From assembly GCF_001544355.1 (NCBI RefSeq), contig NZ_BCQI01000003.1:62001-126000 (forward strand): a stretch of 64,000 bases of DNA. The letters run 5' to 3'. This document shows, piece after piece, positions 20,462 through 35,389 of the stretch. Below the pieces are notes generated by a model. It saw only the letters and a program-made list of their open reading frames with translations, made no database searches and had not been told where the DNA came from. Made by a program: the position numbers and the translations under genes. The DNA comes from Alicyclobacillus acidiphilus NBRC 100859. Lineage in GTDB: Bacteria > Bacillota > Bacilli > Alicyclobacillales > Alicyclobacillaceae. Position 1 is the stretch's first letter, and each line of letters begins with the position of its first letter.

Positions 20462-20501
20462 ATGTTGCGGGATTCCGCATTCGCAATAGGCTTCTCCCTA
20501 G

Positions 20502-20510
20502 CATAGGCTA
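20502..20510 (+). promoter_or_regulatory. Possible sigma-K/E-type -10 element of the cortex hydrolase gene
   Basis: CATAGGCTA matches the sigma-K -10 pattern CATAnnnTA and lies 35 bases upstream of the ATG at 20545. The -35 side (about 20480-20486) is not convincing. It fits a mother-cell-expressed spore gene, but this is tentative. Confidence 0.3.
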
Positions 20511-20544: not shown

Positions 20545-21441
20545 ATGCGAATTCATCGCGTTCGCCAAGGTGAGTCGCTATCGCAGATAGCGGCCACGTA
20601 TGGCGTGTCAGTTCGGGATTTGATCAGGTATAACGAGTTGCCCTCGCGCAGCGAGATCGTGCCTGGCCTCGCGTTGCTTGTGCCGAAGGGCGATCCGTTG
20701 GCGGTTCAGGCGTACACCATTCAGACCGGGGACACCGTTGAATCCATCTCCCAAAAATTCGGCATTTCTCCTGCAGTATTCAGCAATTGGACGGGTTACT
20801 CGACCACCGCGGCCACGCTTCCGGTGGGCTCACGCGTATACCTGCCCGTTCGCCGCACGAGTCTGAAGACCATTGAGGTAAACGGCTATCTCCTGCCATC
20901 GGGCACGGACAGCGACAGGGAAATTTTGCAGGACGTATCGCAAATGACCTATTTCTGTTCATTCAGCTATCAGGTGAGAGCCGATGGGAGTCTCGTGGCC
21001 CCGAGAGACGACATCGCCCTGGCTGCGGCGAAGCAGGCGCGGATCCAACCACTGATGACGATGACCAACTTTGACGGCAACAACTTCAACACCACCCTCG
21101 CGCATACGATTTTGGCCAACGATTCGCTTCGGCGCCGCGTGATCGACAACGTGCTCTCGACGTGTACCGCGAAAGGATTTGGCGGCGTCAACGTCGACTT
21201 CGAACACATGCAGCCTTCGGATCGCCCGCTGTACAACGCGTTTATCGCCCAACTGCGCGACGCGCTGCACGCGCGGAATTTGACCGTTTCCATCGCGATG
21301 GGCCCGAAAACAGGAGACAATCCGAATCAGTCGTGGATGGGCGCGTTCGATTACAGGACGTTGGGAGAAGAAGTGGACTTCCTGATGCTGATGACTTACG
21401 AGTGGGGGTGGGTCGGAGGACCTCCTCCAACCCGCGTTTGA
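20545..21441 (+). pseudogene. sleL: Spore cortex hydrolase (LysM-LysM-GH18, SleL/YaaH-like), 5' part, interrupted
   Basis: Residues 1-46 and about 52-97 are two LysM peptidoglycan-binding repeats (HRVRQGESLSQIAATYGV; YTIQTGDTVESISQKFGI). From about residue 100 a GH18 TIM barrel begins, with the catalytic-strand motif GVNVDFEHM that carries the acid Glu. The family (B. subtilis YaaH, Bacillus SleL) cleaves cortex fragments with muramic-delta-lactam during germination and is made in the mother cell. The barrel breaks off after WGWVGGPP at 21425, and 13 bases of foreign sequence lead to a stop after 298 residues. The rest of the barrel is found in frame at 34978-35389. Joining the two gives 430 residues, the YaaH length (427). 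GGGAGG precedes the ATG. Confidence 0.93.
21414..21425 (+). other. Left attachment site core (attL)
   Basis: CGGAGGACCTCC marks the exact point where the GH18 reading frame stops matching its family. The same 12 bases recur at 34966-34977, in the same codon register, at the right end of the element. The core is almost palindromic (GGAGG-A-CCTCC), as expected for a serine recombinase crossover site. Confidence 0.88.
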
Positions 21442-21471
21442 CTACAACTTGCGTGGACTGCTCGCGGACGT

Positions 21472-22104
21472 TCACATCACGCGTAGACGTGAATGCCGCG
21501 CACCTTGTTGGATTGGACCGAATCGGAACAGTTTCGCGGCAAGCGTCGTCAAGGGAAGAACCAGCTTCGAGAATTTCCATGTTATTTTCGAAGCGATCAC
21601 GCCAATCACCATGCCCGCAATCACATCGGTTGGGTAGTGGACGCCAACGTACACTCTTGCAAACATGACGATCACAGCGACGACTGTAAATGTCCAGCTT
21701 ATCCACTTTACGTTGTATCCCCATGAACCCGCCGCAAAACCGAAGCTGCCCGCTGTGTGATCACTCGGGAACGACCCATCGTGGCTGTGCGGAATCAACT
21801 GTGTGAACGTACCTTTCTGGAACACTGTGAACGGTCTGGGACGAAACCAGATGTGTCCGATGACGACGTTGATCATGAGTGCGACGATACCGGACAGCCC
21901 TGCCATGACGAGTGCGTGTCGATGTTCAAGGTCTCGCTTTGGCAGTGCAAACCATGCCATCACAAACAGGACGGCATAGATTTCAAGGGCGTCTTTGGCG
22001 AAAAAGATCATGACGTGGTCAAACAGCGAATGATGTCCAGCCATACCGTTGATGAGATGATACACCGTCGTGTCAAAAGGATTGAGGAAAGCTCCGCGAA
22101 TCAT
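21472..22104 (-). CDS. PAP2-family phosphatase, BcrC-like undecaprenyl pyrophosphate phosphatase
   Basis: A 210-residue protein with about five membrane helices. The PAP2 motifs are IWFRPRPF (motif 1), GSFPSDHTAG (motif 2, catalytic His) and RVYVGVHYPTDVIAG (motif 3, nucleophile His). This is the BcrC arrangement; these enzymes dephosphorylate undecaprenyl pyrophosphate outside the membrane and give bacitracin resistance. It ends 47 bases inside the left end of the element. Its promoter (22143-22168) shares an ECF-type motif with the divergent DedA gene, so the two are probably co-induced. Another PAP2 lipid phosphatase role is possible. Confidence 0.85.
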   Translation of the reverse strand: MIRGAFLNPFDTTVYHLINGMAGHHSLFDHVMIFFAKDALEIYAVLFVMAWFALPKRDLEHRHALVMAGLSGIVALMINVVIGHIWFRPRPFTVFQKGTFTQLIPHSHDGSFPSDHTAGSFGFAAGSWGYNVKWISWTFTVVAVIVMFARVYVGVHYPTDVIAGMVIGVIASKITWKFSKLVLPLTTLAAKLFRFGPIQQGARHSRLRVM

Positions 22105-22142
22105 GCATATATCCCCGCTTTCTGTCTGATAACACCCTTATA

Positions 22143-22168
22143 GACAGTCGATGGTGTGAAAAAGTTCA
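22143..22168 (-). promoter_or_regulatory. ECF-sigma-type promoter of the PAP2 gene
   Basis: On the minus strand TGAACTTTTT (22168-22159) is followed by TGTCTATA, with 16 bases between TGAACT and TGTC. The divergent DedA promoter has the same elements at the same spacing. It lies about 40 bases upstream of the PAP2 start. Confidence 0.6.
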
Positions 22169-22230
22169 TCTGAAATTTTGTAATGGAGAAATGCAATCCT
22201 ACGAAAACGAACGTAAAGCTTGCGGTTGGG

Positions 22231-22256
22231 TGAACTTTTTGACTGGACCCATCGTC
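22231..22256 (+). promoter_or_regulatory. ECF-sigma-type promoter of dedA and the sigma factor operon
   Basis: TGAACTTTTT (22231-22240) and CGTCCATA (22253-22260) are separated by 16 bases counted from TGAACT to CGTC. The -10 CGTC is the classical ECF form. The transcript would run through dedA, the sigma factor, the anti-sigma and the membrane protein, giving autoregulation. Confidence 0.62.
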
Positions 22257-22317
22257 CATATAGACAGCAACGAGTACTAGCCACGACTATCCGCGCGTTT
22301 CACGAGGAGGAGCTCCA

Positions 22318-22917
22318 TTGCACGTAAATATACACATGATGCTGCAGCATTACGGGTACTTCGGCGTGTTTTTTATTTTGATGATCGAGATGATTGGTAT
22401 ACCATTCCCAGCCGAAACGACACTCACGATATCCGGCTTCGAGTGGGCGAGTGGGGCGTTTCGATTGGTTCCACTCTTGTTCAGTGCGGCCCTCGGGAAC
22501 ATGGTGGGTTCCACGATCGCGTTTTTCATCGGACGAACACTGGGCCGCCCCGTCGTTGTCCAGTTTGGAAAATACGTTGGAATTACGGAGGCGCGTTTGG
22601 ACAAGGCGAACCTGTTGTTCCATAAGTACCAGAGTTGGATCGTCGTGATCGGAAAGTTTATCGCCGGCGTACGCGTGTTGATTCCGTATCTCGCCGGAAT
22701 CAACAGAATGAACTTTGCCTTGTTTTCCATCTGGAACGCTGTCAGCGCCTTTGTCTGGGCAGGGGTGTTTATCGTTCTGGGCCGCTACATCGGTGTCGAA
22801 TGGTCAAAGTACCATCAAACGCTGCACCAGTACTTGGTGCCGGGCATTTTTGTGCTTGTCATTGCGATGGGTGTCGCGATCGCGCTGAAAGCAAGAGGCA
22901 AAAAGGGGGCTCATTAG
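22318..22917 (+). CDS. DedA-family membrane protein (possible undecaprenyl-phosphate translocase)
   Basis: A 199-residue membrane protein of the DedA/VTT family. The signatures are the re-entrant EMIGIPFPAETTLTISGF near residue 20, GRTLGRPVV, and GKFIAGVRVLIPYLAGINRM with the conserved Arg. DedA proteins such as UptA recycle undecaprenyl phosphate across the membrane. The divergent neighbour is a BcrC-like phosphatase that makes the same lipid, and both promoters match, which supports that substrate here. The start is TTG with GAGGAGGAG 7 bases upstream. The sigma factor gene follows after 72 bases. Confidence 0.85.
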   Translation: MHVNIHMMLQHYGYFGVFFILMIEMIGIPFPAETTLTISGFEWASGAFRLVPLLFSAALGNMVGSTIAFFIGRTLGRPVVVQFGKYVGITEARLDKANLLFHKYQSWIVVIGKFIAGVRVLIPYLAGINRMNFALFSIWNAVSAFVWAGVFIVLGRYIGVEWSKYHQTLHQYLVPGIFVLVIAMGVAIALKARGKKGAH

Positions 22918-22927
22918 TTCGCCCCCT
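22904..22927. repeat. Hairpin at the end of dedA
   Basis: AGGGGGC (22904-22910) pairs with GCCCCCT (22921-22927) around the dedA stop codon. No U-run follows on the plus strand, so it may only attenuate read-through into the sigma factor gene; the minus strand has a short T-run after it. Confidence 0.5.
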
Positions 22928-22989
22928 GGGCATCCGCTTTCCCGCGATTTCATTTCAGGTTACCTTCATCACTTCGGGAGGTTGATTGG

Positions 22990-23526
22990 TTGGACCAGAA
23001 CGACATCAACCTAATCCGAGCTGCGCGTAAAGGGGACACCAATGCCTTCGCGCATATCGTTGGCAATTACAAGGACTACGTGTATCGAACGGCACTGCAC
23101 ATCGTGCGGGATTGCCACGATGCCGAAGATGTCACACAAGAGGTGTTCATGAAGGCATATAAGGCCCTGCGGAAACTCAAGGATGAGCGGACATTTCCAG
23201 CGTGGCTGGCTCAAATCGCGACACGGACTTCGCTGGATTGGCTTAAATCCAAGCGCCGCCACCCAACCACGGATTGGGAGTCGGAGGAGGAAATTCGCGG
23301 CGACACGGGCGTGATGGCCGTTACGACCATCGAGGTGGACCAAGCCTTGGCAAGTTTAAGCGAGGAGCACCGTGTGGTGACCCTGTTGCGAGCCGTGTAC
23401 GGATTCGAGTACGAAGAAATTGCGAACATTCTCGATATCCCCATTGGAACGGTCCGATCCCGACTGCATCACGCGAGACTGCAGCTGCGGCAATATCTGA
23501 AAGAAGAAAGGGGAGATGAGCGATGA
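22990..23526 (+). CDS. ECF-family RNA polymerase sigma factor
   Basis: A 178-residue sigma-70 family protein with only regions 2 and 4. Region 2 shows DAEDVTQEVFMKAYKAL, and region 4 LSEEHRVVTLLRAVYGFEYEEIANILDIPIGTVRSRLHHAR. The start is TTG with GGGAGG upstream. Its stop overlaps the anti-sigma ATG by 4 bases (ATGA). By position it is expected to read the TGAACTTTTT...CGTC promoters in front of dedA and the PAP2 gene. The size, the partner and the lipid-recycling targets resemble SigM/SigW-type envelope stress systems. Confidence 0.93.
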   Translation: MDQNDINLIRAARKGDTNAFAHIVGNYKDYVYRTALHIVRDCHDAEDVTQEVFMKAYKALRKLKDERTFPAWLAQIATRTSLDWLKSKRRHPTTDWESEEEIRGDTGVMAVTTIEVDQALASLSEEHRVVTLLRAVYGFEYEEIANILDIPIGTVRSRLHHARLQLRQYLKEERGDER

Positions 23527-24026
23527 ATTGTCACGAGGTCCGTCCGATGTTCACGGCCTATATCGACGGAGCACTCTCACCAGGGGAGTACGACACGGTT
23601 GCCCGTCACGTCGCCGGATGTCCGTCGTGCCAGGCGCTGTTGGCAGAATTGGAGGAGACAACGTTCGTCTTGGTCGATTTGGTGGAATCAACGACCGCCC
23701 CTATGGATATCGAACAACGCGTCATGGCGGAAATCCAAGCATTGAATCAGACGCGCCAAGCCAATCGGCTCTCCCTTGTGCCAGCGATTGCGGGGATATT
23801 GGGTTTCGCGATCATCGCCGCCATCCTCCTCTCTCCAGCGGGGATGATCATTCGAGTCACGTTCCGGTTGCTGTATCGGGCATCCGGCGGGATCGCAACA
23901 GTACCTGTGCTGCTCGGTCACTGGTGGGTCATCGTCTTCGCGATCTCAGCCTTGATGCTCATCTGGTTTTCCGTTGCCGCGGTATTGCGATTACTCCGTT
24001 CCGTCCAAAGTGAGGTCCTGCTATGA
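23523..24026 (+). CDS. Zinc-binding anti-sigma factor
   Basis: A 167-residue protein starting MNCHEVRPMFTAYIDG, with the zf-HC2/ZAS pattern HVAGCPSC (His, then Cys-X2-Cys about residues 28-36, with Cys3 upstream). This region normally grips its sigma factor. Two membrane helices follow at about 85-105 and 130-152. It overlaps the sigma gene by 4 bases and the next gene by 4 bases, so all three are translationally coupled. The signal that releases the sigma factor is unknown; the third protein may contribute. Confidence 0.9.
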   Translation: MNCHEVRPMFTAYIDGALSPGEYDTVARHVAGCPSCQALLAELEETTFVLVDLVESTTAPMDIEQRVMAEIQALNQTRQANRLSLVPAIAGILGFAIIAAILLSPAGMIIRVTFRLLYRASGGIATVPVLLGHWWVIVFAISALMLIWFSVAAVLRLLRSVQSEVLL

Positions 24027-24883
24027 AACGCTGGTGGGTATGGATCGGGATCGTCGTCGTGGTCCTCTTGATTATTGTGGTTCCGTTCGTTCACATGAGA
24101 AATGTTCTTGCGGTCAGGCAGACAGATACGCTCATCAGCCAGTCGACGACGACCATCCCAAAAGGGCAGAGCATTGCAGACGTCGTGGTACTCGGTCACA
24201 ACGTGAACGTATCAGGCAACGTCTATGAGCTCCTCTTCGTAGTGAACGGAGACATTCATCTGGGGCCGACTGCCCGCGCCGATATGGTCATCGATTTAGG
24301 CGGAACCGTTCGGGAAGCTCCCGGCGCCCACGTCAATCAGTTGTTCCACATTTCTCTCACCACACCGTTTTGGAACGGGGCCCTCGTCGGCGTTCTACTC
24401 GCAGCCATGGTTTGGGGAGGATTCTTATTCCTAAGCATTGTCATGGTCATGCTCTCGGTGATTGTGACATGGGTCCTGCGCAATCGTCTGCATGTGCCAT
24501 TGAACACCATGGATCGCTCAATACGCAAAACAGGTGTGATCGGTTTACTAACCAGCATCGGGGCGATAGCAGTCATTGCGCTGCTGTCGATCACGATCAT
24601 CGGCATCCCGCTGGCCGGCGTCTTCGCGCTCGTTTACGCCGTCGTCGGTGTCATCGGCCTCGGACTGGTCTCACTATGGTTAGGGAAATTTGCGTTTCGA
24701 AATTCCTCCACCGAGCGTCCAGCGTGGCTCATGACGTTGCTTGGCTCAAGCCTATTGGCCGCGTTCTGTAACATCCCGTTTGTTGGGCTCGTGTTGTTCG
24801 CGCTGTTCTGGTGCGTCGGCGTCGGCGTCACGACGGTGTGGGGCTGGAACGCTTGGCGAACACGGAAGTCGCGGAGAGGGTAA
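24023..24883 (+). CDS. Membrane protein with bactofilin-like extracytoplasmic domain
   Basis: A 286-residue protein: one N-terminal helix (about 5-23); a beta-rich segment with the repeating turns DVVVLGHNVNVSGNV and VVNGDIHLGPTARADM, the pattern seen in bactofilin-type right-handed beta repeats (about 50-105); then four more helices to residue 275. Membrane proteins of this type are often next to ECF sigma/anti-sigma pairs. It starts in the anti-sigma stop (ATGA) and closes the operon. I infer a role in sensing or regulating the envelope stress signal; no enzymatic motif is visible. Confidence 0.7.
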   Translation: MKRWWVWIGIVVVVLLIIVVPFVHMRNVLAVRQTDTLISQSTTTIPKGQSIADVVVLGHNVNVSGNVYELLFVVNGDIHLGPTARADMVIDLGGTVREAPGAHVNQLFHISLTTPFWNGALVGVLLAAMVWGGFLFLSIVMVMLSVIVTWVLRNRLHVPLNTMDRSIRKTGVIGLLTSIGAIAVIALLSITIIGIPLAGVFALVYAVVGVIGLGLVSLWLGKFAFRNSSTERPAWLMTLLGSSLLAAFCNIPFVGLVLFALFWCVGVGVTTVWGWNAWRTRKSRRG

Positions 24884-25160
24884 GGAGACGCGGAACGGAG
24901 CGCGGGGGCGCGGAGGCGCAGGGGCGCAGGGGCGCAGGGGCGCGGAGGCGCGGAGGCGCGGGGGCGAATAAGCGCTCGCTGGCGGCTTATTTGTGTCGAA
25001 TCGGAGGATTTGAGCCGAATAAGCGGCTGAGAGAGGCTTAATTGCCTGAAATCCTGCCATTTCGGCGGCCTCGGAGGCGAATAAGCCTTCTGTGGCCGCC
25101 TATTTTGCCTTCGATCCGGTCACTCCATCAAAATAAGCGACTGAGAGACGCTTATACGTG
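24884..25160. repeat. GC-rich tandem repeats and four hairpin repeats of the AATAAGC family
   Basis: Bases 24897-24965 are near-perfect tandem copies of a 10-base GGGGCGCAGG/GGAGGCGCGG unit. Four imperfect palindromes of the form AATAAGC...GCTTATT follow at 24967-24991, 25018-25043, 25080-25106 and 25132-25155. Related, more perfect copies lie outside the element at 46080-46268. I see no credible gene here. Confidence 0.75.
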
Positions 25161-25195
25161 TACTACCTTCATCACCACTCCGCGATCTCGCCTTG

Positions 25196-25735
25196 CGCCT
25201 TCGCGATCACGCCGCCATAGCGGAACTTTTGCCCCTTATGCGGCTGCGGCGCCATCCGCGCCGTCACGCCCGTGCCGCCATAGCGGAACTTTTGTCCCTT
25301 ATGCGGCCGCGGCGCCATCCGCGCCTTCGCGATCGCGCCGCCGTAGCGGAACTTTTGTCCCTTATGCGGCCGCGGCGCCATCCGTGCCTTCGCGATCGCG
25401 CCGCCGTAGCGGAACTTTTGCCCCTTATGCGGCCGCGGCGCCATCCGCGCCGTCACGCCCGTGCCGCCATAGCGGAACTTTTGTCCCTTATGCGGCTGCG
25501 GCGCCATCCGCGCCTTCGCGATCGTGCCGCCATAGCGGAACTTTTGTCCCTTATGCGGCCGCGGCGCCATCCGCGCCTTCGCGATCGCGCCGCCGTAGCG
25601 GAACTTTTGTCCCTTATCCGGCTGGCCGCCGCCTCGCGCCGTCACGCCCGTGCCGCCATAGCGGAACTTTTGTCCCTTATCCGGCTGGCCGCCGCCTCGC
25701 GCCAGCCCGCTCCCGCCGCTGTACAAACTCTCGTG
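25196..25735. repeat. Eight-copy 63-bp tandem repeat
   Basis: GCGGAACTTTT recurs at 25220, 25283, 25346, 25409, 25472, 25535, 25598 and 25661, exactly every 63 bases. Two variants of the flank alternate irregularly (GCCGTCACGCCCGT and GCCTTCGCGATCGC), and the last two copies have a GGCTGGCCGCCGCC variant. Since 63 is a multiple of 3, several frames on both strands stay open (for example a minus-strand 196-codon frame 25762-25172 with unit PHKGQKFRYGG). None has a clear ribosome site, and the array runs into the copZ promoter, so I treat it as non-coding minisatellite DNA. Confidence 0.8.
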
Positions 25736-25746
25736 ACCGCATTGCG

Positions 25747-25775
25747 TTGACTTGTATACCATACGGGGGTATAGT
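25747..25775 (+). promoter_or_regulatory. copZ promoter with CsoR operator
   Basis: TTGACT (25747-25752) and TATAGT (25770-25775) are 17 bases apart. In the spacer and -10 lies TATACC-ATACGGG-GGTATA (25755-25773), a close match to known CsoR operators such as the one at B. subtilis copZA. Cu(I)-free CsoR would block RNA polymerase directly. Confidence 0.88.
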
Positions 25776-25801
25776 AATTACATGAAAGGGGTGCATGGAA
25801 G

Positions 25802-26008
25802 ATGGCAACGATCACGATTCCGGTCAAGGGTATGACCTGCAGCGGCTGTGTCAATTCGGTCACCAAGGCACTCAAGGGTGTCGATGGTGTGGAGACGGTC
25901 GAAGTTAGTCTGGAAGCAAATCAGGCGACTGTGACCTATGACGAAGCCAAGGCGTCCGAAGACACGCTTAAGGAAGCCATCGAGGACGCGGGGTACGACG
26001 TGGCCTAA
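25802..26008 (+). CDS. copZ: Copper chaperone CopZ
   Basis: A 68-residue single heavy-metal-associated domain. GMTCSGC near residues 10-15 binds Cu(I) through two Cys, and the ferredoxin-like fold is evident to the last residue. It delivers Cu(I) to CopA or CsoR in the cytosol. The ATG follows GAAAGGGG at a distance of about 13 bases. It is the first gene after the CsoR-controlled promoter and belongs with csoR (26321) and copA (26625). Confidence 0.95.
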   Translation: MATITIPVKGMTCSGCVNSVTKALKGVDGVETVEVSLEANQATVTYDEAKASEDTLKEAIEDAGYDVA

Positions 26009-26320
26009 CGTTCTGGCCTAACGATCTCGGCGTAAAGATCTTGCCTTACCATTTTGCCTAACGATTGGGCCGCGGCGAAGCAATTCGCCTCGGCCTCAGT
26101 GTTCACGGAAGGTGGGTTGGCTTGGGCGTATCGTGGGTATCGTTTTTCAATACGTCTCGATCATCCCTCATCACTCACCAGAATTTGCGTGAAGCGGGCG
26201 AGACGCGTTGAAAGCCGATACGTCGTTCCTGGATGGCAACCGACTGGTCCGGATTGGTTTTAGGCACGTTTCGGTTCGTTGTACAGGGCGGTGTCAAACA
26301 TCGAATGCGAGGTGCAGGGC
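26009..26320. other. 312-base gap between copZ and csoR
   Basis: The first 60 bases contain degenerate direct repeats of TGCCTAACGAT (about 26002-26065). A 69-codon frame at 26054-26263 has no ribosome site and no recognisable product. No second CsoR box and no terminator are evident, so copZ-csoR-copA may be one transcript. Confidence 0.5.
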
Positions 26321-26611
26321 ATGAGTGAACACAATCACAGTTATGGCAACCATAAATCCGAGTTGTTGGCGCGATTGAAGCGGATTGAGGGGCAGGTTCG
26401 AGGGATTCAGAAGATGATCGAAGAGGATCGGTACTGTGTGGACATCATCACGCAACTGGCGGCTGTGAAAAGCGCAACCAATCAGGTGGCGCTCAACCTG
26501 CTCGATTCGCATGCCCATCACTGCGTGAAGGAAGCGCTCGCGACGGGCAATGACGCCGATCAAAAGATCGACGAACTCATGGACGTGGTTCGAAAAGTGT
26601 CAAAAGGGTAA
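26321..26611 (+). CDS. csoR: Copper-sensing repressor CsoR
   Basis: A 96-residue all-helical repressor of the CsoR/RcnR family. The Cu(I) ligands Cys-His-Cys are present: RYCVDIITQ (first Cys) and DSHAHHCVKEA (His and second Cys). LARLKRIEGQVRGI is the family DNA-binding stretch. I chose ATG at 26321 with GAGGTG 7 bases upstream; an earlier in-frame start would add a non-conserved tail. Cu(I) binding releases it from the operator at 25755-25773. copA follows after 13 bases. Confidence 0.93.
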   Translation: MSEHNHSYGNHKSELLARLKRIEGQVRGIQKMIEEDRYCVDIITQLAAVKSATNQVALNLLDSHAHHCVKEALATGNDADQKIDELMDVVRKVSKG

Positions 26612-26624
26612 GGGGATGTGTTAG

Positions 26625-28805
26625 ATGGCAATCGAGGAACCAAACGTTCGCGAAGCCACCTTTGCCATCGAGGGTATGACTTGTGCGGCGTGCGCAGCGC
26701 GCATTGAGAAGGTGGTCGGGCGCGTCAAAGGGGTCAAGTCCGTTCAGGTGAATCTCGTGTCTGAGAAGGGCAAGGTCGCGTACCTGCCGGGGGTGACGTC
26801 GGAACAGGACATCATCCAAGCGGTGGAGAAGGCAGGGTACTCGGCGCACGTATTCACGGAGGACATGGAGAAACACGAACGCGAGAAGAAGGCGCGAGCG
26901 CATCGGCGAGAGCTGTACACGTTTACGTTCTCCGTTGTGTTGACGCTCCCGCTGGTCATTCAGATGTTCGCGATGCTCGCTGGCGCCGGGGCTTTGATGC
27001 CAAGTTGGGTCAGTCTGATTCTCGCGACGCCGGTTCAATTTTTCGTGGGCTGGCGCTTCTACAAAGGCGCGTATCATTCGTTGCGCGGCGGCGCGGCAAA
27101 TATGGATGTCCTGGTCGCGCTTGGCACGTCTGTGGCATACGTGTACAGCGTCGCCTTGGTCGCCCTGGGGCGCACCGATACGTATTTTGATTCCTCGGCC
27201 ACGGTCGTCACGCTGATTTACATGGGCAAATTGTTGGAATCTCGGGCGAAACGGCGCTCCAGTTCAGCCATTGAGCAACTCGCGAAGTTGGGCGCCAGAG
27301 TTGCCCATGTGATTCGGGACGGCGAAGAATTCGACGTTCCGGTTGAGGAGCTTCAAGTTGGTGATCTCGTCCGTGTTCGACCGGGTGAAAAAGTGCCCGC
27401 GGACGGGGTCATCGCGGACGGGGCAACGTCCATCGACGAATCGTTTTTAACGGGTGAGTCGATGCCCGTCGCGAAACAGGCAGGTTCCCCAGTCGTTGGC
27501 GCGTCCGTCAATCAGACGAACGCCTTCACGATGATGGTGACCAAGGTCGGCGCGGACACGGCGCTCGCGCAAGTGATCCGGCTTGTCGATGCGGCACAGG
27601 GATCGAAGGCGCCTGTTCAACGCCTCGCGGACACGATCTCGGGAATTTTTGTCCCCATCGTACTGGGTATCGCGTTTGTCACGTTTTTCGCGTGGGGCAT
27701 CTTCGGCGGCTGGACGCATGCGCTCGTCGCCGCGGTGGCCGTCCTCGTCATCGCCTGCCCATGTTCCCTGGGGCTGGCGACCCCGACGGCCATCATGGTC
27801 GGCACGGGACTTGGCGCGGAACACGGCATTCTCATCAAGGGCGGCGAACATCTGGAACTTGCACACAAGGTCAACACGGTCGTATTGGACAAGACGGGGA
27901 CGATCACGGCGGGGAAGCCGTCCGTGATCGACGTCTGGAGTGCCGAAGCGGCGAGCGAAGCCGATCTGGTCCGGCTTGCGGCTGCGCTGGAAGCGCAAAG
28001 CGAGCATCCACTTGGCAGGGCGATTGTGGAGTATGCCCGGGAGCGCGGGGGTGTGTGGCCGGAAGCGTCTGAGGTTCGCGCTGTTCCCGGAAAAGGGATC
28101 GAAGCGAACATCGATGGTCATGTCGTTCGCGTTGGCAATCGCCGCTGGATCGCCGAGGAGTTGTACATCCAAGTGCCTGATGAACGTCTCGCCGCGTACG
28201 AAAGTGAGGCGAAGACGGCCGTGATCGTCGCCAGCGATGACCAAATCATGGGGGTGATCGCCATCGCGGATGCCGTGAAACCCGACGCGAAGCAAGCCGT
28301 CGAGCGACTGCGGGCGATGGGCATCGACGTCTGGATGGTGACTGGGGATAACGAACGGACGGCGGAGGCGGTGGCCTCGCAGGTCGGGATCGATCACGTC
28401 ATGGCCTCGGTCCTGCCGCAGGATAAGGTGGGGAAGGTGGCCGAGCTCAAGCGTCGGGGCAGCGTGGTGGCGATGGTCGGAGACGGCATCAACGACGCGC
28501 CGGCGCTTGCCGAGGCCGATATCGGGATCGCCATGGGGACAGGCACGGATATCGCGATGGAGGCGGCGGACATTGCCCTGATGCGGTCCAATTTGATGGG
28601 CGTGGTGAACGCCATCGAGTTGTCCAAGGCGACGATGCGAAAGATTCGGCAGAACCTGTTCTGGGCGTTCTTCTACAACGTCATCGGGATTCCACTCGCG
28701 GCGGCGGGGATTTTGAATCCGATGATCGCGGGTGCGGCGATGGCCTTGAGCTCGGTCAGCGTCGTGTCAAACAGCCTGCTGCTCAAAGGCCGGCGCTTCG
28801 ATTGA
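26625..28805 (+). CDS. copA: Copper-exporting P1B-type ATPase
   Basis: A 726-residue Cu(I) pump. It has one N-terminal metal-binding domain ([12 protein letters not shown], about 18-30), then eight membrane helices. The CPC copper site is in [15 protein letters not shown], the phosphorylated Asp in DKTGTIT, the SEHPLGRAI motif binds ATP, and [10 protein letters not shown] is the hinge. The last helices carry the conserved [12 protein letters not shown] single N-terminal domain is fewer than the two in B. subtilis CopA but is common. It is the end of the copper module and precedes the recombinase genes by about 90 bases. Confidence 0.96.
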
Positions 28806-28895
28806 TCCGCCTGTGATGGTCTTGCCGGCGGTCGATCGCGCCCTCAGGCAAGTGGACAAACGGCTCCATCATATCCATCCCATGAGGTGATGGGT

Positions 28896-29012
28896 ATGCC
28901 AGGTGAAAAGGTCACTGTCGACTCGGTGTCGTATGGCCGTGTCAGCCAAGAGACCATCCGCGAAGAAGTGATGGAACTGTTCTTGCTGTATCGAAACATG
29001 CGCAGGAGGTAG
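28896..29012 (+). CDS. 38-residue protein encoded just before recombinase 1
   Basis: The ATG at 28896 has GAGGTG 6 bases upstream and reads 38 codons to TAG at 29010-29012. The protein is charged and mostly helical (QETIREEVMELFLLYRNMRRR at the end, split here as QETIREEVMELF / LLYRNMRRR). Its last codons contain the AGGAGG used by recombinase 1, so the two are translationally coupled. A small basic protein directly before a large serine recombinase is a natural candidate for a recombination directionality factor, but this is inference from size and position only. Confidence 0.55.
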   Translation: MPGEKVTVDSVSYGRVSQETIREEVMELFLLYRNMRRR

Positions 29013-29016
29013 AAGC

Positions 29017-30303
29017 ATGCCTACCTGCGCCATTTACGCTCGCGTGTCGGATGAATCCCAGGTCAAAGGCGATTCCATCGAACATCAAATTGCATTCTGC
29101 CGGGAAGTGGCGCGAATTCGCAGCCTGGATAGCGACGATCCGTGGACGATCCCAGCGGAGTGCGTGTATGTCGATGAAGGTATCACAGGTACGAGCCTGA
29201 TTAAACGCCAGCAGGTGCAGCGACTGATCCGTGACGCAAGGGATCGGCGATTTGAAGTGGTCCTGTTCAAAGGGATCTCACGGTTTGCGCGTGATACGGT
29301 CGATGCCCTTGTCATGCTGCGTACCTTGCTGTCGTGCCATGTACGCGTGATATCCATGGAAGAAAACTTCGACAGCCTGCGAGACAACGCCGAGTTTGTG
29401 TTTACCATTCACAGCGCCTTGGCCCAGGCCGAGTCGGAGAAGACCGCGATTCGCGTGCGGATGGGGGCGAGCCAAAAGGCGCGATCCGGCCAGTGGAATG
29501 GGCAGCCCCCGGATGGGTACGTGCTCGACCCGCTGACGAAGCGCCTCGACATCGATTGGTCGTTCGCGCCGGTGATTCGGGAGATATTTACATTGTACGT
29601 GAACGGATACGGCGCGAGACGGATTGCCGACCTGTTGAACGAAAACGGCCAGTTCACGAAGCGCGGATACAGGTGGACGCAGAGAAGTGTCTCGCGGATT
29701 GTGCAGAATCCCGTGTATGTCGGCGACGTCGTCTATGGGCGGCGAGAGCGGCGCTATACGGTGTCTGAACATGACGATTTGTTTTCACGCAAGCGTATCA
29801 TGCGGTTCACAAACGATGTAAGCAAGGTCGTCGTGTGTGAGAATGCCCACCCAGCGATTATCGATCGCGAAACGTTCGCGAGGGCCTTGGCGGCGAAGAC
29901 CGCGAGACGGGCGTCGGGTGGCCGTGCGGGCAAACATCACCTGCTCACCAAGGGATTGATGAAGTGTTCCTGTGGGGGCAGCATGACCATCCGCTACAAC
30001 GGATCGGGCACGGCGTATTACCGTTGTCTTCGTCAGATGGACAAGGGGAAGACCGTATGTGATCAGCCCTATATTCGTGCGGACGAGATCGAAGCCGCAG
30101 TTCTGGATCGAGTCCGGATGGACGTCGAAGCCGTCGTTCGATGGGATGAAACGCCGGACTTCCAGCGGACGATGCGGCGACTGTTAAGCATGCAAACGGA
30201 TGATCCACACATCACGAAGCAGTTGCTCGCCAAGCTCGTGCGCTGCGTGTCGATTCATCGCCACAAGGTAACCATACAGTACCGCTTTCGTGAACATCCG
30301 TGA
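29017..30303 (+). CDS. Large serine recombinase 1
   Basis: A 428-residue site-specific recombinase. The N-terminal catalytic domain (1-150) has CAIYARVSDES with the nucleophile Ser11, VDEGITGTS, and KGISRFARD with the conserved Arg. The recombinase domain follows (LDPLTKRLDIDWSFAPVI onward), and a zinc ribbon is seen as CSCGG plus C...C near residues 315-350. It is shorter than phiC31-type integrases (about 600) and lacks a clear coiled-coil. AGGAGG lies 7 bases upstream of the ATG. It is about two-thirds identical by eye to recombinase 2 and probably moves this element between CGGAGGACCTCC sites. Confidence 0.95.
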   Translation: MPTCAIYARVSDESQVKGDSIEHQIAFCREVARIRSLDSDDPWTIPAECVYVDEGITGTSLIKRQQVQRLIRDARDRRFEVVLFKGISRFARDTVDALVMLRTLLSCHVRVISMEENFDSLRDNAEFVFTIHSALAQAESEKTAIRVRMGASQKARSGQWNGQPPDGYVLDPLTKRLDIDWSFAPVIREIFTLYVNGYGARRIADLLNENGQFTKRGYRWTQRSVSRIVQNPVYVGDVVYGRRERRYTVSEHDDLFSRKRIMRFTNDVSKVVVCENAHPAIIDRETFARALAAKTARRASGGRAGKHHLLTKGLMKCSCGGSMTIRYNGSGTAYYRCLRQMDKGKTVCDQPYIRADEIEAAVLDRVRMDVEAVVRWDETPDFQRTMRRLLSMQTDDPHITKQLLAKLVRCVSIHRHKVTIQYRFREHP

Positions 30304-30359
30304 GTATGGGTGAACATGCGTGAACGTGAATTTGCTCGCGTGTCGTCAAATGTCGACCT

Positions 30360-30381
30360 GAGGACCTCCTCCGGCCATCGC
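30360..30381 (+). other. Third att-like site between the recombinase genes
   Basis: GAGGACCTCC (30360-30369) matches the core of both attachment sites. The next three bases, TCC, match the left site, and the following GGCCATCGC (30373-30381) matches the right chromosomal flank 34981-34989 in register. Overall 19 of 22 bases agree with 34968-34989. A chance match this long in the 143-base gap between two recombinase genes is improbable, so it is probably a secondary or relic attachment site. Confidence 0.7.
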
Positions 30382-30446
30382 TGCAACGACAAGTTCCGGC
30401 AGTCGGACAATCTGCACAGGCATAAGCATCATCGAGGTGATAGCCG

Positions 30447-31670
30447 ATGCCTAGGTGTGCCATCTATGCTCGCGTGTCGGACGACGTACAGGTCAAGGGA
30501 GAGTCGATTGAGCACCAAATCTCCTTCTGTCAGGAGATCGCGCGCCGCCGCACAGTCGAGACGGGTGAAACCTGGACCGTCGCCGACAGTCTGACGTACG
30601 TCGACGAGGGCATCACAGGCACCAGCCTGGTGAAGCGCGCCGAAGTGCAGCGATTGATTCGCGATGCGAGAGCGGATCGGTTCGATGTCGTACTGTTTAA
30701 GGGCATATCGCGATTTGCGCGCGATACGGTCGACGCCTTGATCATGCTTCGCACGCTCCTGGCCTGTGGTGTGCGGGTCATTTCGATTGAGGAGAATTTT
30801 GACAGTCAACGCGATCAAGCGGAGTTCGTGTTCACCATCCACAGCGCGCTCGCTCAGGCGGAGTCCGAAAAGACCGCCATTCGAGTGCGCATGGGCGCTT
30901 TGCAGAAAGCCCGGCAGGGCAAGTGGAACGGCCCCCCTCCGGAGGGGTATCGGCTGAACCCGCTCACGAAGCGGCTCGATATCGATCCGGATGCAGCCCC
31001 GGTCATACGCGATATTTTCGATCTATACCTTCGCGGCTATGGATTTCGCAAAATCGCTCGGATCTTGAACGATCGCGGCCAATCGACGAAACAGGGCCAT
31101 CCCTGGACGCAGCGGCGGATCGGGCGCATCCTGTCCAATCCTGCCTACGTCGGCGATGTCGCGTACGGACGCCGCGAACGAAAAATTGCGGTGCCGGATG
31201 ACGGCGAGCTGCTCTCGCGACGGAAAACGACGGTCTGGGTGAAAAATCGCGACGCCGCGATTGTCTGCCGCGACGCGCATCCTGCCATCGTCGATCGCGA
31301 CACATTCGAGCGGGTCGCCGCACGCCTGGTCCAAAGACGCGAACGTTCGCCAAATGGGAGCAAGGCGCAGTTGTTGAGCGGTTTGCTGGCGTGTTCCTGC
31401 GGATCGAGCATGGTAACGCACTACAATGCCCATGGAACGCGGTACTATCGATGCGCAGGGCGAGCCAAACACGGTCGAGCGTTTTGCAATCAGCCATTCG
31501 TTCGCGCGGACGACGTGGAATCGTTCGTCGTCCGCGAGGCCTCGGCACACGCCCACGTTCAAGACCCGGCGAACATCGCAGGCGGTGACATGCGCTCGTG
31601 GCTGCAGCATGTGATTCAACGGGTCACGGTCGATCACGGCGAATTTCAAATGACCTATCGCCCATCGTGA
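30447..31670 (+). CDS. Large serine recombinase 2
   Basis: A 407-residue paralogue of recombinase 1. The catalytic Ser11 is in CAIYARVSDDV, followed by VDEGITGTS, KGISRFARDT and the recombinase domain (LNPLTKRLDIDPDAAPVI). The zinc ribbon is at LLACSCGSSM and RYYRCAGRAK...FCNQPF. GAGGTGAT lies about 6 bases before the ATG, in a context similar to that of the small ORF before recombinase 1. Adjacent pairs of large serine recombinases can act together, as CcrA and CcrB do in SCCmec. The two may differ in site preference, which the third att-like site would allow. Confidence 0.95.
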   Translation: MPRCAIYARVSDDVQVKGESIEHQISFCQEIARRRTVETGETWTVADSLTYVDEGITGTSLVKRAEVQRLIRDARADRFDVVLFKGISRFARDTVDALIMLRTLLACGVRVISIEENFDSQRDQAEFVFTIHSALAQAESEKTAIRVRMGALQKARQGKWNGPPPEGYRLNPLTKRLDIDPDAAPVIRDIFDLYLRGYGFRKIARILNDRGQSTKQGHPWTQRRIGRILSNPAYVGDVAYGRRERKIAVPDDGELLSRRKTTVWVKNRDAAIVCRDAHPAIVDRDTFERVAARLVQRRERSPNGSKAQLLSGLLACSCGSSMVTHYNAHGTRYYRCAGRAKHGRAFCNQPFVRADDVESFVVREASAHAHVQDPANIAGGDMRSWLQHVIQRVTVDHGEFQMTYRPS

Positions 31671-31795: not shown

Positions 31796-31996
31796 TTGCG
31801 CGATTGCTCTCGTGGGCAGCTTGGCATTCAACGGGTCTACGCGAATACACACAGCTTGGTAAACGCGTCAGGCCCAAGGATTGAATCAGGAGAGCGCAGA
31901 TCTCATCAGACGCTCAGGCCATGCGCTCTCCGCGTAATTTCGGCTGGGCCGGCGCGGAGTGGGCCCTTCCTTTGCCCAATTGTAAAGGTTTCGATC

Positions 31997-32062
31997 TTGG
32001 CAGACTGTTCTCGCTGTGCTGTAATAAGCGTAGAGTAACTTGTTATGACATCATAAGGAGTT
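31997..32062 (+). promoter_or_regulatory. MFS exporter promoter with palindromic operator
   Basis: TTGGCA (31997-32002) and TGTAAT (32020-32025) are 17 bases apart. Just downstream of the expected start, TTATGA-CA-TCATAA (32043-32056) is a perfect palindrome, extended by AACT (32037) and AGTT (32059) arms. It looks like the operator of a TetR- or MarR-type repressor, but no such gene is nearby. The rest of the 31671-32100 gap shows no gene. Confidence 0.55.
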
Positions 32063-32100
32063 GTGGGCGGAGCATGCGAGAGCCCGAGGGGGAGTTTGCC

Positions 32101-33528
32101 GTGATCGACAAAGTGCCGCTGCAATCGGTGTGTCATCGCGAGAAGTACCATTGGTTCGTGGTTGGAACGGTCTGCGTCGGAGCGTTCATGGCTGCGCTCG
32201 ATTCCAGCATCGTCAACATCTCTTTGCCCGTGCTGAAGCACGCTTTCGGCACGCGAATGAGCACCATCGAGTGGGTGAGCCTGACCTATCTTTTGACGTT
32301 GGCGGCCACGATTGTGCCCTTCAGTCGACTCGCGGACATGTACGGCCGGCGCTGGATGTATACCATTGGTTTTTTCGTTTTTATCGTTGGTTCTCTCTCC
32401 TGTGGCCTCGCGGCCTCTTTGCCAGTGTTGTTCGGATCTCGAATTGTTCAAGCGCTGGGAGCGGCTATGCTGCAATCCAACAGTGTGTCGATCATCACGG
32501 CGGCGACACCTGCCAAAGATCGCGGCAAGGCCATCGGAATCCAGGCGATGGCGCAAGGTGTCGGATTGAGTCTGGGACCCGTGATTGGCGGCACGTTCCT
32601 CACGTTCTTGGGCTGGCGCTGGATTTTCTACGTGAACGTCCCAGTCGGCATCATGGGTACGCTTCTCGGCATCATGCTGTTGCCAGCGGACGAACGCCAC
32701 CCGCGCTCGGGGAAATTTGACGTCTGGGGTACGATGGTCCTTGCGCCGACGCTTGTGGCGATTGTGTACGTTTTGAACTCGGGCTCACAGGCCGACTGGG
32801 GCTCCCTTGTCATGCTGGTGTGTTACGGCGTGATCGCGGCCGGGTTGACTGGATTTTGGTGGATTGAACGGAGGGTCCCGACGCCGATCGTGGATCTGAG
32901 CCTGTTTCGCAACCGAACGTTTGTTGTCGGGAACGCGTCCGTTGCCTTGTCCTTCGCCGTGATGTACGCGGTGATGTTTCTGGCGCCCTTTTATATGGAC
33001 GATGTGCATCATCTGAACGCATTGACATCGGGCATCGTGTTGATGGTGATCCCCGTGGGCATGGCGATCTTCACGCCTTTGTCGGGTTTCCTGGCCGATC
33101 GCGTCGGCCCCAGGCTCCCATCCGTCCTGGGGATGTCTGTGGTCTGTGTCGGCGCATTGGCCATCTCCGTCTTCACAGTGTGGTACGCGGGTGTTTTGTT
33201 TGCCGCCGGGTTCTTTGTGATTGGCTGCGGCATGGGCGTCTTCACACCGGCGAACAACAGCCAGGTGATGGGAACGCTGCCCTCCAGTCGCCTCGGCGTC
33301 GGCGGCGGCATCCTGAACTTGGCGAGAACGCTCGGCATGGGCTTCGGTGTCGCGATGGGCGGCTTGTCGTATCAGGCGTTTTTGCGCATGTATGGCGCGA
33401 TCGACGAGAACCGGCCTCGCATGGATCAAATGATCCCCGCTTTCCGCGATTCCTTTCTGCTCGTCGGCGTCTTGGCGCTTGTCGTGGTTCTCCTGCTGGT
33501 TCTGGGTGCGCGGAGATCGCGCTCCTAG
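32101..33528 (+). CDS. MFS drug exporter, DHA2 (EmrB/QacA) family
   Basis: A 14-helix proton-driven exporter of about 475 residues. Motif A lies in the loop SRLADMYGRRWMYTIGF, and the family start ALDSSIVNISLPVL and motif C (GPVIGGTFLTFLGWRWIFYVNVPVG) are clear. The GTG at 32101 has GGGGGAG 6 bases upstream; an ATG at 32074 in the same frame would add nine residues with a poorly spaced site. The promoter and palindromic operator upstream suggest induction by its substrate. It is part of the resistance cargo of the element. Confidence 0.92.
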   Translation: MIDKVPLQSVCHREKYHWFVVGTVCVGAFMAALDSSIVNISLPVLKHAFGTRMSTIEWVSLTYLLTLAATIVPFSRLADMYGRRWMYTIGFFVFIVGSLSCGLAASLPVLFGSRIVQALGAAMLQSNSVSIITAATPAKDRGKAIGIQAMAQGVGLSLGPVIGGTFLTFLGWRWIFYVNVPVGIMGTLLGIMLLPADERHPRSGKFDVWGTMVLAPTLVAIVYVLNSGSQADWGSLVMLVCYGVIAAGLTGFWWIERRVPTPIVDLSLFRNRTFVVGNASVALSFAVMYAVMFLAPFYMDDVHHLNALTSGIVLMVIPVGMAIFTPLSGFLADRVGPRLPSVLGMSVVCVGALAISVFTVWYAGVLFAAGFFVIGCGMGVFTPANNSQVMGTLPSSRLGVGGGILNLARTLGMGFGVAMGGLSYQAFLRMYGAIDENRPRMDQMIPAFRDSFLLVGVLALVVVLLLVLGARRSRS

Positions 33529-33632
33529 AGTGATTTCAGCCGCCTTTCGGGTGCGGTTATCACGTCCGTATGACGTTTTTCGAACTTCACGCTATAATGG
33601 AATGAAAGTCTCTGGAGAGGAGAGCGCCGTAC

Positions 33633-34583
33633 TTGAGCACGCACCATCATTCCCATGGACATGATCACGATCACGGCGACGTGTTTCACACGCATGCTCC
33701 TCTTGGAAAAATGCGGATGGCGTTCTTCCTGACGATGCTGATTCTTGTAGTAGAAGTTTTGGGCGGCGTATTTTCCGGGAGTCTCGCGCTGTTATCCGAC
33801 GCTGGGCATGTGCTGACGGACATTGCCGCCTTAGGCTTGTCGTGGTACGCGATGAAACAAGCCGAGAGGCCGTCGAACCAGAGAATGACGTACGGCTATT
33901 ATCGCGCCGGCATTTTGGCGGCGTTTATCAATGGGATCACACTGATTCTCATCACCTTGTGGATATTGTGGGAAGCGTATCAGAGATTTCAACGTCCCGA
34001 ACAAGTGGCCCCGACGTGGATGTTGATCAGCGCGGGTATTGGTCTCGCGACGAATCTGTATCTGGGATTGGGTATGAGTCACCATCACGACATCAACGTT
34101 CGCAGCGCCGTGCTGCATATGATGGGGGACGCGGCGGCGTCGGCGGGCGTGATGGTCGGCGGCGTCATCATCGCCTTCACACACTGGTATCCGATCGATC
34201 CGATTTTGAGTGTGCTGATTGGATTGCTCATCGCCTTCGGCGCATGGCGCATCGTTCAGCAGACCGTGGTCATTCTGATGGAGGGCACGCCGCGTGACGT
34301 CGATTTGGATCGGGTGGTTGGAGCCATTCGCTCCGTGCCTGGTGTGAACAATGTCCACGACGTTCACGCGTGGACCATCACGAGCGGACGAAACGCCCTC
34401 TCTTGCCATATCGCCCTGAATGGATCGCAAACTGTCACCGACAGTCAATCGGTCATCCGCGAGATCGAACACCGCCTCGCGCATCTTGGCATTGGCCATG
34501 TGACGGTTCAAATGGAGGATCAGAACCATCCCCACGAGGACCACGTGTTTTGCACAAATCCCGATGGAACGCATCGCCATTGA
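33633..34583 (+). CDS. czcD: Cation diffusion facilitator, CzcD-like Zn/Co/Cd exporter
   Basis: A 316-residue CDF transporter with six helices. It begins with a His-rich stretch (STHHHSHGHDHDHGD), has the two membrane metal sites SDAGHVLTD and HMMGDAAASAGV (HxxxD pairs), and ends with a cytoplasmic domain and another His-rich tail. CzcD-type proteins exchange Zn2+, Co2+ or Cd2+ for K+ or H+. The start is TTG with GAGAGGAG upstream. It lies 104 bases after the MFS gene and ends with a strong bidirectional terminator. Confidence 0.93.
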   Translation: MSTHHHSHGHDHDHGDVFHTHAPLGKMRMAFFLTMLILVVEVLGGVFSGSLALLSDAGHVLTDIAALGLSWYAMKQAERPSNQRMTYGYYRAGILAAFINGITLILITLWILWEAYQRFQRPEQVAPTWMLISAGIGLATNLYLGLGMSHHHDINVRSAVLHMMGDAAASAGVMVGGVIIAFTHWYPIDPILSVLIGLLIAFGAWRIVQQTVVILMEGTPRDVDLDRVVGAIRSVPGVNNVHDVHAWTITSGRNALSCHIALNGSQTVTDSQSVIREIEHRLAHLGIGHVTVQMEDQNHPHEDHVFCTNPDGTHRH

Positions 34584-34808: not shown

Positions 34809-34965
34809 CTACTTGCACCTTCCTGAGAGTATTCGTGAAGATTGCCTACTGCATCTTCATCTCTGTAATCAGTCTACCCAAATTTGCTTGAAAAAAACTT
34901 CAAAGGTACCTTTGTGCGCAAAATCATACGTTCCAAAATGTGGATAACTCGTGTTGCACGATGGG
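34809..34965. other. AT-rich right arm of the element with a 14-bp palindrome
   Basis: This stretch is much more AT-rich than the rest of the window. It holds the perfect palindrome CAAAGGTACCTTTG (34901-34914), 52 bases from the right core, and a TTGAA...TTCAA inverted repeat at 34889-34903. These could bind recombinase accessory proteins or drive the small minus-strand gene. No coding sequence is seen. Confidence 0.5.
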
Positions 34966-34977
34966 CGGAGGACCTCC
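34966..34977 (+). other. Right attachment site core (attR)
   Basis: This second copy of CGGAGGACCTCC sits exactly where the GH18 coding sequence resumes with MAIAPVNQV. The codon phase is identical to that of the left copy at 21414-21425. Confidence 0.88.
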
Positions 34978-34978
34978 G

Positions 34979-35389
34979 ATGGCCATCGCACCCGTCAACC
35001 AAGTGCGTGCCGTGTTGGAATACGCGACCAGCGTGATCGATTCCCGCAAAATTTTGTTTGGCATGTCGCTGTATGGGTACGACTGGCCGCTTCCGTTTGA
35101 GCAAGGGAAGACCAAGGCGAGCGGCCTCTCCAACAACGCGGCTCAGAACCTGGCGATCGCGGAGCAGGCGTCCATTTTCTGGGATCCAGAGTCGGCATCG
35201 CCTTACTTTGACTACGAGGCTGCCGGCGTTGCGCACCGCGTGTGGTTTGACGACGCGCAGAGCGCCGCCATTAAACTGTCCCTGTTGGATGAGTACAATC
35301 TTCGAGGTGTGTCAGTTTGGGTGCTGGGCAATGAGTTTCCGCAGTTGTGGTATATTCTCGAAGATTCGTACCGTATCACCAAACTGTAA
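34979..35389 (+). pseudogene. sleL: Spore cortex hydrolase (SleL/YaaH-like), 3' part
   Basis: This is the C-terminal part of the GH18 barrel whose start lies at 20545. It begins MAIAPVNQVRAVLEYATSVI and continues with GMSLYGYDWPLPF, a barrel strand typical of YaaH, then VWFDDAQSAA and GVSVWVLGNEFPQLW. It ends in the usual family C-terminus. In the present arrangement it could only be translated separately: the core's GGAGG lies 7 bases before the ATG at 34979, so a 136-residue fragment may be made, but it has no catalytic Glu. Removal of 21426-34977 would restore the full protein. Confidence 0.92.

Follow-up and report, generated by a model that had tools for sequence, protein, structure and literature searches.

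A short att-type sequence between two large serine recombinase genes of Alicyclobacillus acidiphilus NBRC 100859 can be assigned, with good confidence, to the seam between two mobile units stacked in tandem, unit A with the recombinase rec1 and unit B with the recombinase rec2. The 64,000-nucleotide stretch of DNA that was analysed, called the window here, appears to hold a two-unit tandem array of gene-intervening elements at one chromosomal attB inside a LysM/GH18 hydrolase gene, which we take to be yaaH/sleL-like. Unit A would extend from attL to position 30365 and unit B from 30365 to attR, and the seam would combine a left half-site of unit A with a right half-site of unit B, joined at an 8-bp core. 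The features read from the sequence are the split of the gene, the restoration of its frame, recurrent sites, two recombinase lineages and the pairing of the arms. Since the units appear to be stacked head to tail with a seam between them, the gene would in principle be rejoinable, and the units could be lost singly or together.

Organization of the element

Features of the window are given by position.

20501..20510, + strand: sigma-E/K-like -10 (GCATAGGCTA), with the CATA lying 43 bp ahead of the split gene's start codon
20545..21425, + strand: 5' part of the split gene, to the attL core inclusive, with Pfam LysM (two stretches) and Glyco_hydro_18 (profile 54-182)
21416..21450, + strand: attL, with the chromosomal arm preceding, the core GGACCTCC at 21418, then the P' arm of unit A (TCCAACCCGCGTTTGACTACAACTTG)
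21472..28805, strand given for PAP2 (-) only: unit A cargo from the ORF list, namely PAP2, DedA, sigma factor, anti-sigma-like protein, membrane protein, CsoR and CopA-type ATPase
28870..28898, + strand: hairpin over the Shine-Dalgarno sequence of the small ORF before rec1 (z -1.07)
28896..29012, + strand: small ORF before rec1, 38 aa, a member of the conserved small ORFs that precede recombinases, found by eye and missed by the pattern search
29017..30303, + strand: rec1, large serine recombinase, 428 aa (Resolvase, Recombinase and zinc-ribbon domains; alignment; tree)
30338..30395, + strand: third site, with the P arm of unit A on the left, the core GGACCTCC at 30362-30369 and the P' arm of unit B on the right
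30418..30452, + strand: hairpin directly before rec2 (z -1.46)
30447..31670, + strand: rec2, large serine recombinase, 407 aa (domains, alignment, tree and predicted models)
31921..34583, + strand: unit B cargo, an MFS transporter (31921-33528) and a CDF-type metal transporter (33633-34583), named by eye
34945..34989, + strand: attR, with the P arm of unit B (CTCGTGTTGCACGATGGGCGGA), the core at 34970-34977, then the chromosomal arm
34970..35389, + strand: 3' part of the split gene, 139 aa, GH18 profile 208-316; joining restores the frame

The names of the unit A cargo genes are presumptive, having been assigned by eye. The CDF protein of unit B is 74% identical to that of the second unit in genome G001. 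Within unit A, the interval 25042-25785 between the membrane protein and CsoR genes contains tandem coding-like repeats of SRRHSGTFAPYAAAAPSAP units (by eye). No tRNA was found in the 64-kb window, and a tRNA-associated insertion was rejected. Two single-unit elements, in G006 (L044) and G012 (L046), have a cargo close to that of unit A (sigma factor, PAP2, CsoR and CopA) without DedA. They combine this cargo with a recombinase of another lineage, so that cargo and recombinase seem to have been exchanged.

The third site and its equivalents in relatives

The third site at 30360-30381 reads GAGGACCTCC TCC GGCCATCGC and the right end at 34968-34989 reads GAGGACCTCC GAT GGCCATCGC. Direct reading of both bears out the 19 identical positions of 22 on which the original prediction of an att-like sequence was based. 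attL (21416-21428) shares the first 13 bases of the third site (GAGGACCTCCTCC) as well, a match absent from that prediction, and the site therefore has a partial likeness to attL and attR each. Allowing at most three mismatches, GAGGACCTCCNNNGGCCATCGC has two matches in the window, the third site and attR, against 0.01 expected from shuffles. The exact 10-mer GAGGACCTCC occurs three times in the window (at 21416, 30360 and 34968) and seven times genome-wide (3.86 Mb, both strands), where three of the copies are both element ends and the third site; the four copies outside the window correspond to about 0.014 per 13.5 kb. The foreseen losses of 8,944 bp by recombination with attL and 4,608 bp with attR agree with the site coordinates, within an element of 13,552 bp from end to end, and loss of cargo in such modules is possible.

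A close recombinase (E ≤1e-90) was found in 17 of the 41 genomes examined in the family, with 23 genes in all. The LysM/GH18 gene is split at the same place in 16 of these 17, as seen by tblastn and reading of the regions, with the gene halves on different contigs in G021 (A. tolerans BL-1) and G031 (A. ferrooxydans TC-34). G022 has a whole LysM/GH18 gene and a split htrA-like gene instead; outside the family, G041 has its hydrolase gene split as well. All five genomes with at least two close recombinases have internal sites, flanked on both sides by element-type arms, after their internal recombinases, six sites in total: 30362 in the window genome (G000), 31132 in G007 (A. fastidiosus DSM 17978), 29430 and 41764 in G001, 2972 in G031 and 10331 on contig C139 of G021, the coordinates being those of stitched slices except for the window. 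The occurrence of equivalent sites after internal recombinases in the four other multi-recombinase genomes supports the att-type nature of the third site, and att homology was looked for at the equivalent position in relatives and was present there. The original prediction also suggested a composite of two nested insertions. Its composite part is supported, with two recombinase lineages and one unit for each, and its nested part is probably wrong, as the flanks fit head-to-tail stacking.

For 18 of the 20 recombinases computed, the stop falls between -28 and +59 bp from the core that follows, a count that left out G021 C162, G041 (reversed), G061 (A. mengziensis), G022 and G046. The exceptions are the window's rec2 (+3,300 bp, to attR) and G025 (+6,435 bp). 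No core was found after the rec1 relative on G021 C162, a gene that lies some 25 kb ahead of the 3' part of the split gene. Across the elements compared, the chromosomal arms are strongly conserved. Inspection by eye shows the element arms as an inverted repeat, in which TGTAGT or TGTTGC stands roughly 20-25 bases away from the centre. At G016 10790 and G031 13880 (stitched), the recombinase frame extends 28 bp beyond the core start into host-gene DNA, so the final residues of these proteins would depend on integration.

A separate observation concerns the htrA-like gene, which is split by related recombinases in all five genomes checked: G022 (C219, 18291-21219), G043 (C43, L117), G047 (C50, L119), G053 (C125, L113) and G054 (C25, L112). 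Its halves carry PF13365 pieces from 1 to 90-95 and from 70-87 to 144, with the recombinase between them. The split in five genomes points to a second target gene of the recombinase family.

Pairing of the arms

The seam test set the left arm found at a unit's right end against the right arm found at its left end, the latter taken as its reverse complement. For 23 units, gapped pairing gave a mean of 4.57 for own arms versus 0.77 for permuted arms, and none of 20,000 permutations reached the observed value; the own arm ranked first of 23 in only seven units and in the lower half in four (the first unit of G031, and those of G016, G003 and G005). Tandem pairing was best in five of five arrays, with the observed sum reached by one of 96 combinations, where two-unit arrays offer one alternative each and where the first and last units were assumed in G021 and G031, which span contig breaks. 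Scores for tandem pairing against its alternatives were 13 versus -3 in the window, 14 versus -12 in G007, 24 versus 5 to 17 in G001, -4 versus -6 in G031 and 14 versus -7 in G021. One cross pair in G001 (7) scored above an own pair (5).

Within the window, the unit B pairing of the third-site right arm with the attR inner arm scored 11.0 and ranked 1 of 2001 against shuffles, and the unit A pairing of the third-site left arm with the attL inner arm was weak (2, rank 96 of 2001). The third-site right arm is also like the arm of the first A. fastidiosus unit (10.0, rank 1 of 2001), and the attL right arm resembles, at rank 1 of 2001, the right arm of the internal site in A. tolerans. Arm likenesses appear to track recombinase lineages in part. 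Compared with the rec2-type unit arms of A. fastidiosus and A. tolerans, the attR left arm shows a weak likeness, at ranks 47 and 63 of 2001 respectively. The third-site left arm, assigned to rec1, is closer to that A. tolerans rec2-type arm (rank 5 of 2001).

Position matrices scored the third-site left arm at 8.4 as a P arm, compared with 4.8 for the 99.9th percentile of window positions. The right arm scored -12.3 as element type (just under the 90th percentile) and -6.0 as chromosomal, both poor. A two-arm matrix scan of the window ranked the third site 24 of 63,944. The matrix clearly classed the attL left arm, the attR right arm and the right arms of five other internal sites, and for these five sites, all in other genomes, the element-type score on the right side was far above the chromosomal score. 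In a left-out test, two of 26 training arms scored equally low (-13.1 and -11.9). The gapped pairing test was adopted only after the poor matrix result for the third-site right arm; an earlier ungapped comparison gave 14.1 for own-unit arms versus 11.4 of 24 on average, and 11 own versus 12 other for unit B of the window. By eye, the conserved arm motif is off register by one base in the third-site right arm and by three in the attR left arm. We give more weight to the pairing test and to the match with the A. fastidiosus arm, and the matrix result stands against this weighting, together with the weak likeness of the attR left arm to rec2-type arms and the closer likeness of the third-site left arm to one of them. 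On this weighting, GGCCATCGC in the third site most probably forms part of the arm of unit B itself and is not a chromosomal copy.

The split gene

Removal of the element at the core gives a single open frame of 430 aa. The joined frame was open at 14 of 14 loci tested, comprising the window and 13 other elements in the same gene at the same codons; this set took in neither G021, G031 nor G061, start codons are uncertain for G018, G025 and G041, and the 3' part in G016 consists of 131 codons with a divergent end. The 5' part is 49-76% identical to the split genes of relatives. Of the 12 regions examined upstream of split genes, 10 have CATANNNT at -41 to -44 (the exceptions being G016 and G025), compared with 3 of 14 intact-gene upstreams at -38 to -41, where a further 6 of the 14 have none in 110 bp. 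Its rate in the window is 0.026 per 110 bp. We presume this -10 to be of the sigma-E/K type, and its position is consistent with control by a mother-cell sigma factor. This -10, along with the presumed yaaH/sleL homology, points towards a spore gene.

The 3' half of the gene in split relatives is under purifying selection, judging from dN/dS values of 0.034 (G003/G005), 0.053 (G003/G011), 0.037 (G005/G011), 0.052 (G006, A. suci/G012) and 0.079 (G004/G007). These five split pairs have a dS of 0.28-1.06, pairs with dS ≥1.9 or saturated having been left out. For comparison, the 5' half of split pairs gave 0.043-0.096 and the 3' half of six intact pairs 0.023-0.096. Such selection on the 3' half suggests regular rejoining, provided that the elements were present throughout.

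The recombinases and their leaders

Both rec1 and rec2 contain the Resolvase, Recombinase and zinc-ribbon domains of large serine integrases (Pfam), and they are 63% identical to each other. In the tree, rec1 groups with the recombinase on A. tolerans C162 (support 100/99) and rec2 with those of A. fastidiosus and A. tolerans C139 (99/96). An alignment of 24 recombinases revealed that a coiled-coil segment is missing in rec1 and rec2 and present in 21 others, the remaining row, G046, being cut by a contig end. Their nearest relatives are 507 aa long. In the model of the A. fastidiosus relative the missing segment forms two long helices (387-415 and 421-454), and in the model of rec2 both helices are absent and the terminal beta hairpin is retained; with pTM values of 0.39 and 0.38, the models were used for local structure only. 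Short recombinases of 425-446 aa also occur in four genomes of another genus (G043, G047, G053 and G054), all in the split htrA-like gene, and the one that was aligned, from G047 (L022), lacks the coil too.

The coiled coil controls the direction of integrases. According to published work, phiC31 integrase without its coil is inactive (PMC10754689). For the Listeria LI integrase without the coil, the same source reports recombination of about 1.6% for attB x attP and of about 2.2% for attL x attR (PMC10754689). Given that LI still recombines and phiC31 is inactive, loss of the coil could mean either loose control of direction or inactivity, and from the phiC31 case the copy in the window, with both rec1 and rec2 affected, may be unable to excise.

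Database searches returned one plasmid record at E ≤1e-40 (36% identity), 276 phage matches of rec2, all below 60% identity and at most 33.8% among the 15 matches listed, and four distant loci in viral contigs (30-31% identity). Assignment to the Ccr recombinases of staphylococcal cassette chromosomes was rejected, with CcrB scores of 138 and 155 bits (best 154.7) versus an NCBIfam cut-off of 900.

A small ORF of 38-84 aa with the motif V.YG/FG directly precedes the recombinase in 22 of 29 cases by pattern search, and some others were found by eye. The pattern missed those of rec1, G001_42996, G004, G025, G022 and L111, some of which are doubtful by eye; before rec2, no small ORF was found either by pattern or by eye. 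The small ORFs measure 38-48 aa before short recombinases (rec2 having none) and 45-84 aa before others, ranges that overlap. Two members searched in NCBIfam and one in Pfam had no match. GirX and SprB are directionality factors of sporulation gene-intervening elements, and the small ORF is a candidate for a directionality factor or a regulator. The two hairpins in the window are no better than shuffles, and four leader hairpins of relatives have z-scores of -2.50, -3.32, -6.15 and -6.91. Their stems differ in sequence yet pair in three relatives (CATATCCAT, CATACGCAT and CATAAGCAT), with the fourth leader pairing otherwise. Hairpins over the Shine-Dalgarno sequence could silence read-through transcripts.

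Proposed mechanism and alternative explanations

We infer from the sequence that recombination occurs, along with its timing and the recombinase responsible. Most probably, a recombinase acting on attL x attR would take out the whole array and rejoin the gene, the presumed setting being the mother cell of a sporulating bacterium, and the seam would also allow the exit of a single unit or growth of the array. Any joining of two units at their att sites would produce such a seam, whether by attP x attR, attP x attL, attP x attP or, with two copies of the chromosome, attL x attR, and these routes would all give the same product and look alike in the sequence. That excision rejoins the gene in the strain analysed is slightly more likely than not. 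Removal of the array may need both recombinases or cross-recognition, because the arms at attL, the seam and attR come from different units. A stronger version, which we regard as improbable, has rec1 and rec2 obliged to act together in excision without a directionality factor. With a unit A arm at attL, a unit B arm at attR and one of each at the seam, neither recombinase alone would recognise a full pair, and the usual control of direction would have gone when both lost the coil and rec2 its preceding small ORF. If this were true, the pair would be natural excision-competent integrases that rejoin a spore gene while dropping or gaining units.

The right half of the third site might be read differently, as attB sequence from another host's gene, which would make the site a true attR of unit A within a nested or serial insertion. 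GGCCATCGC is indeed in register with the right chromosomal flank, at a score of 8.0 (rank 7 of 2001), and the matrix prefers the chromosomal class (-6.0) to the element type (-12.3). The likeness to the flank stops after about nine bases, however, where a coding sequence would continue; the unit B arm (11.0) and the first A. fastidiosus arm (10.0) are better matches, each at rank 1 of 2001; and on the right side of the five internal sites in other genomes the element-type score is far above the chromosomal one. We judge a chromosomal right half unlikely on this balance. A more serious question is whether the array, which would still be joined at a seam, is dead, with both recombinases inactivated, the gene permanently split and the third site a scar. 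Features that would fit are the coil shared by the 21 other complete alignment rows and missing from both recombinases, the small ORF missing before rec2, and the off-register att motifs of unit B (by eye). Yet the coil was lost in two separate in-frame events that left the invariant N-terminal-domain positions and the zinc-ribbon domain in place, and short recombinases of 425-446 aa persist in the four genomes of another genus. Furthermore, both gene halves are open, with dN/dS against G003 of 0.107 and 0.083 at a high dS (1.9), and the coil-less LI integrase still recombines at roughly 2% (PMC10754689). We regard a dead array as rather unlikely.

The adjacency of rec1 and rec2 and their 63% identity might suggest that a recombinase gene and its flanking att site were duplicated in place within a single element. 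The tree does not place the two as sisters, setting them in separate, well supported lineages with relatives in other genomes, and the duplication was rejected as highly improbable. An equally slight prospect is that the sequence reflects chance, or a rec2 operator unrelated to recombination. The core lies about 80 bp before rec2, a plausible position for an operator, but sites are placed likewise after internal recombinases in four other genomes and the 10-mer is rare in the genome; chance resemblance in particular was rejected on this rarity and on the shuffle expectation of 0.01. A seam between tandem units remains the preferred reading of the third site.

Relation to known elements and significance

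The element resembles gin, a non-phage island with several serine recombinase genes that splits the sporulation gene gerE of Bacillus cereus ATCC10987 and has a short shared core inside an inverted repeat (PMC5595907). The authors of that work considered gin a likely composite of mobile elements (PMC5595907). The differences lie in the target, gerE rather than a LysM/GH18 hydrolase gene; in the three gin recombinases, which are about 22-26% identical; and in the seams, as no inter-unit seam sites are described for gin in the available excerpts of its report (PMC5595907). Excision has been demonstrated for gin (PMC5595907) and is predicted for the window element.

The elements skin (sigK), SPbeta (spsM), phi3T (kamA), yin (yabG) and the Alicyclobacillus phage MMB025 (sigK) likewise split a spore gene and use a site-specific recombinase (PMC6957869, PMC10747680, PMC13141910, PMC4191935), and rejoining by excision has been reported for several (PMC6957869, PMC10747680, PMC13141910). 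They are prophages or prophage-like, and the rearrangement is usually served by a single recombinase gene (PMC5595907). Three integrases are annotated in MMB025. The window element differs from this group in its metal-transport and other cargo, its distant phage matches and its stacked units.

Composite staphylococcal cassette chromosomes are also built of units with serine recombinase genes, and their Ccr proteins are reported to join non-canonical att pairs, which is thought to permit the fusion of units (PMC5595907). The window recombinases are not Ccr proteins by the NCBIfam cut-off, and the target gene differs. The target of the cassette chromosomes is orfX. With regard to the coil, the segment missing from rec1 and rec2 matches in position the coiled coil deleted in LI and phiC31 integrases; those proteins are laboratory mutants (PMC10754689), and the loss here is natural and affects two neighbouring recombinases.

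As in skin- and gin-type elements, a putative spore gene is interrupted, its frame would be restored by precise removal, and a recombinase and att sites are present. As expected of a tandem array, the units have one orientation and an apparent att-type seam between them, with reservations on its right arm. The element is predicted to work like the gene-intervening elements skin, gin and yin, with putative excision in sporulation, and to stack like composite cassette chromosomes. Searches of the open-access PubMed Central literature found no description of an interruption of this gene in Alicyclobacillus, nor of seams of this kind.

In spore formers, gene-intervening elements have been described mainly as prophage-like, with one recombinase gene each (PMC5595907). 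Here, one putative spore gene serves as a docking site in 16 of the 41 genomes of the family examined, for units that carry metal-transport and other cargo. The units appear to stack in differing orders: the rec1-type unit comes first in the window and, on an assumed order of contigs, last in A. tolerans. The seams hint at the matching of half-sites to recombinases and may thereby provide a natural set of recombinase and att pairs, and the two neighbouring recombinases without a coil would allow the role of the coiled coil in direction to be tested on natural proteins.
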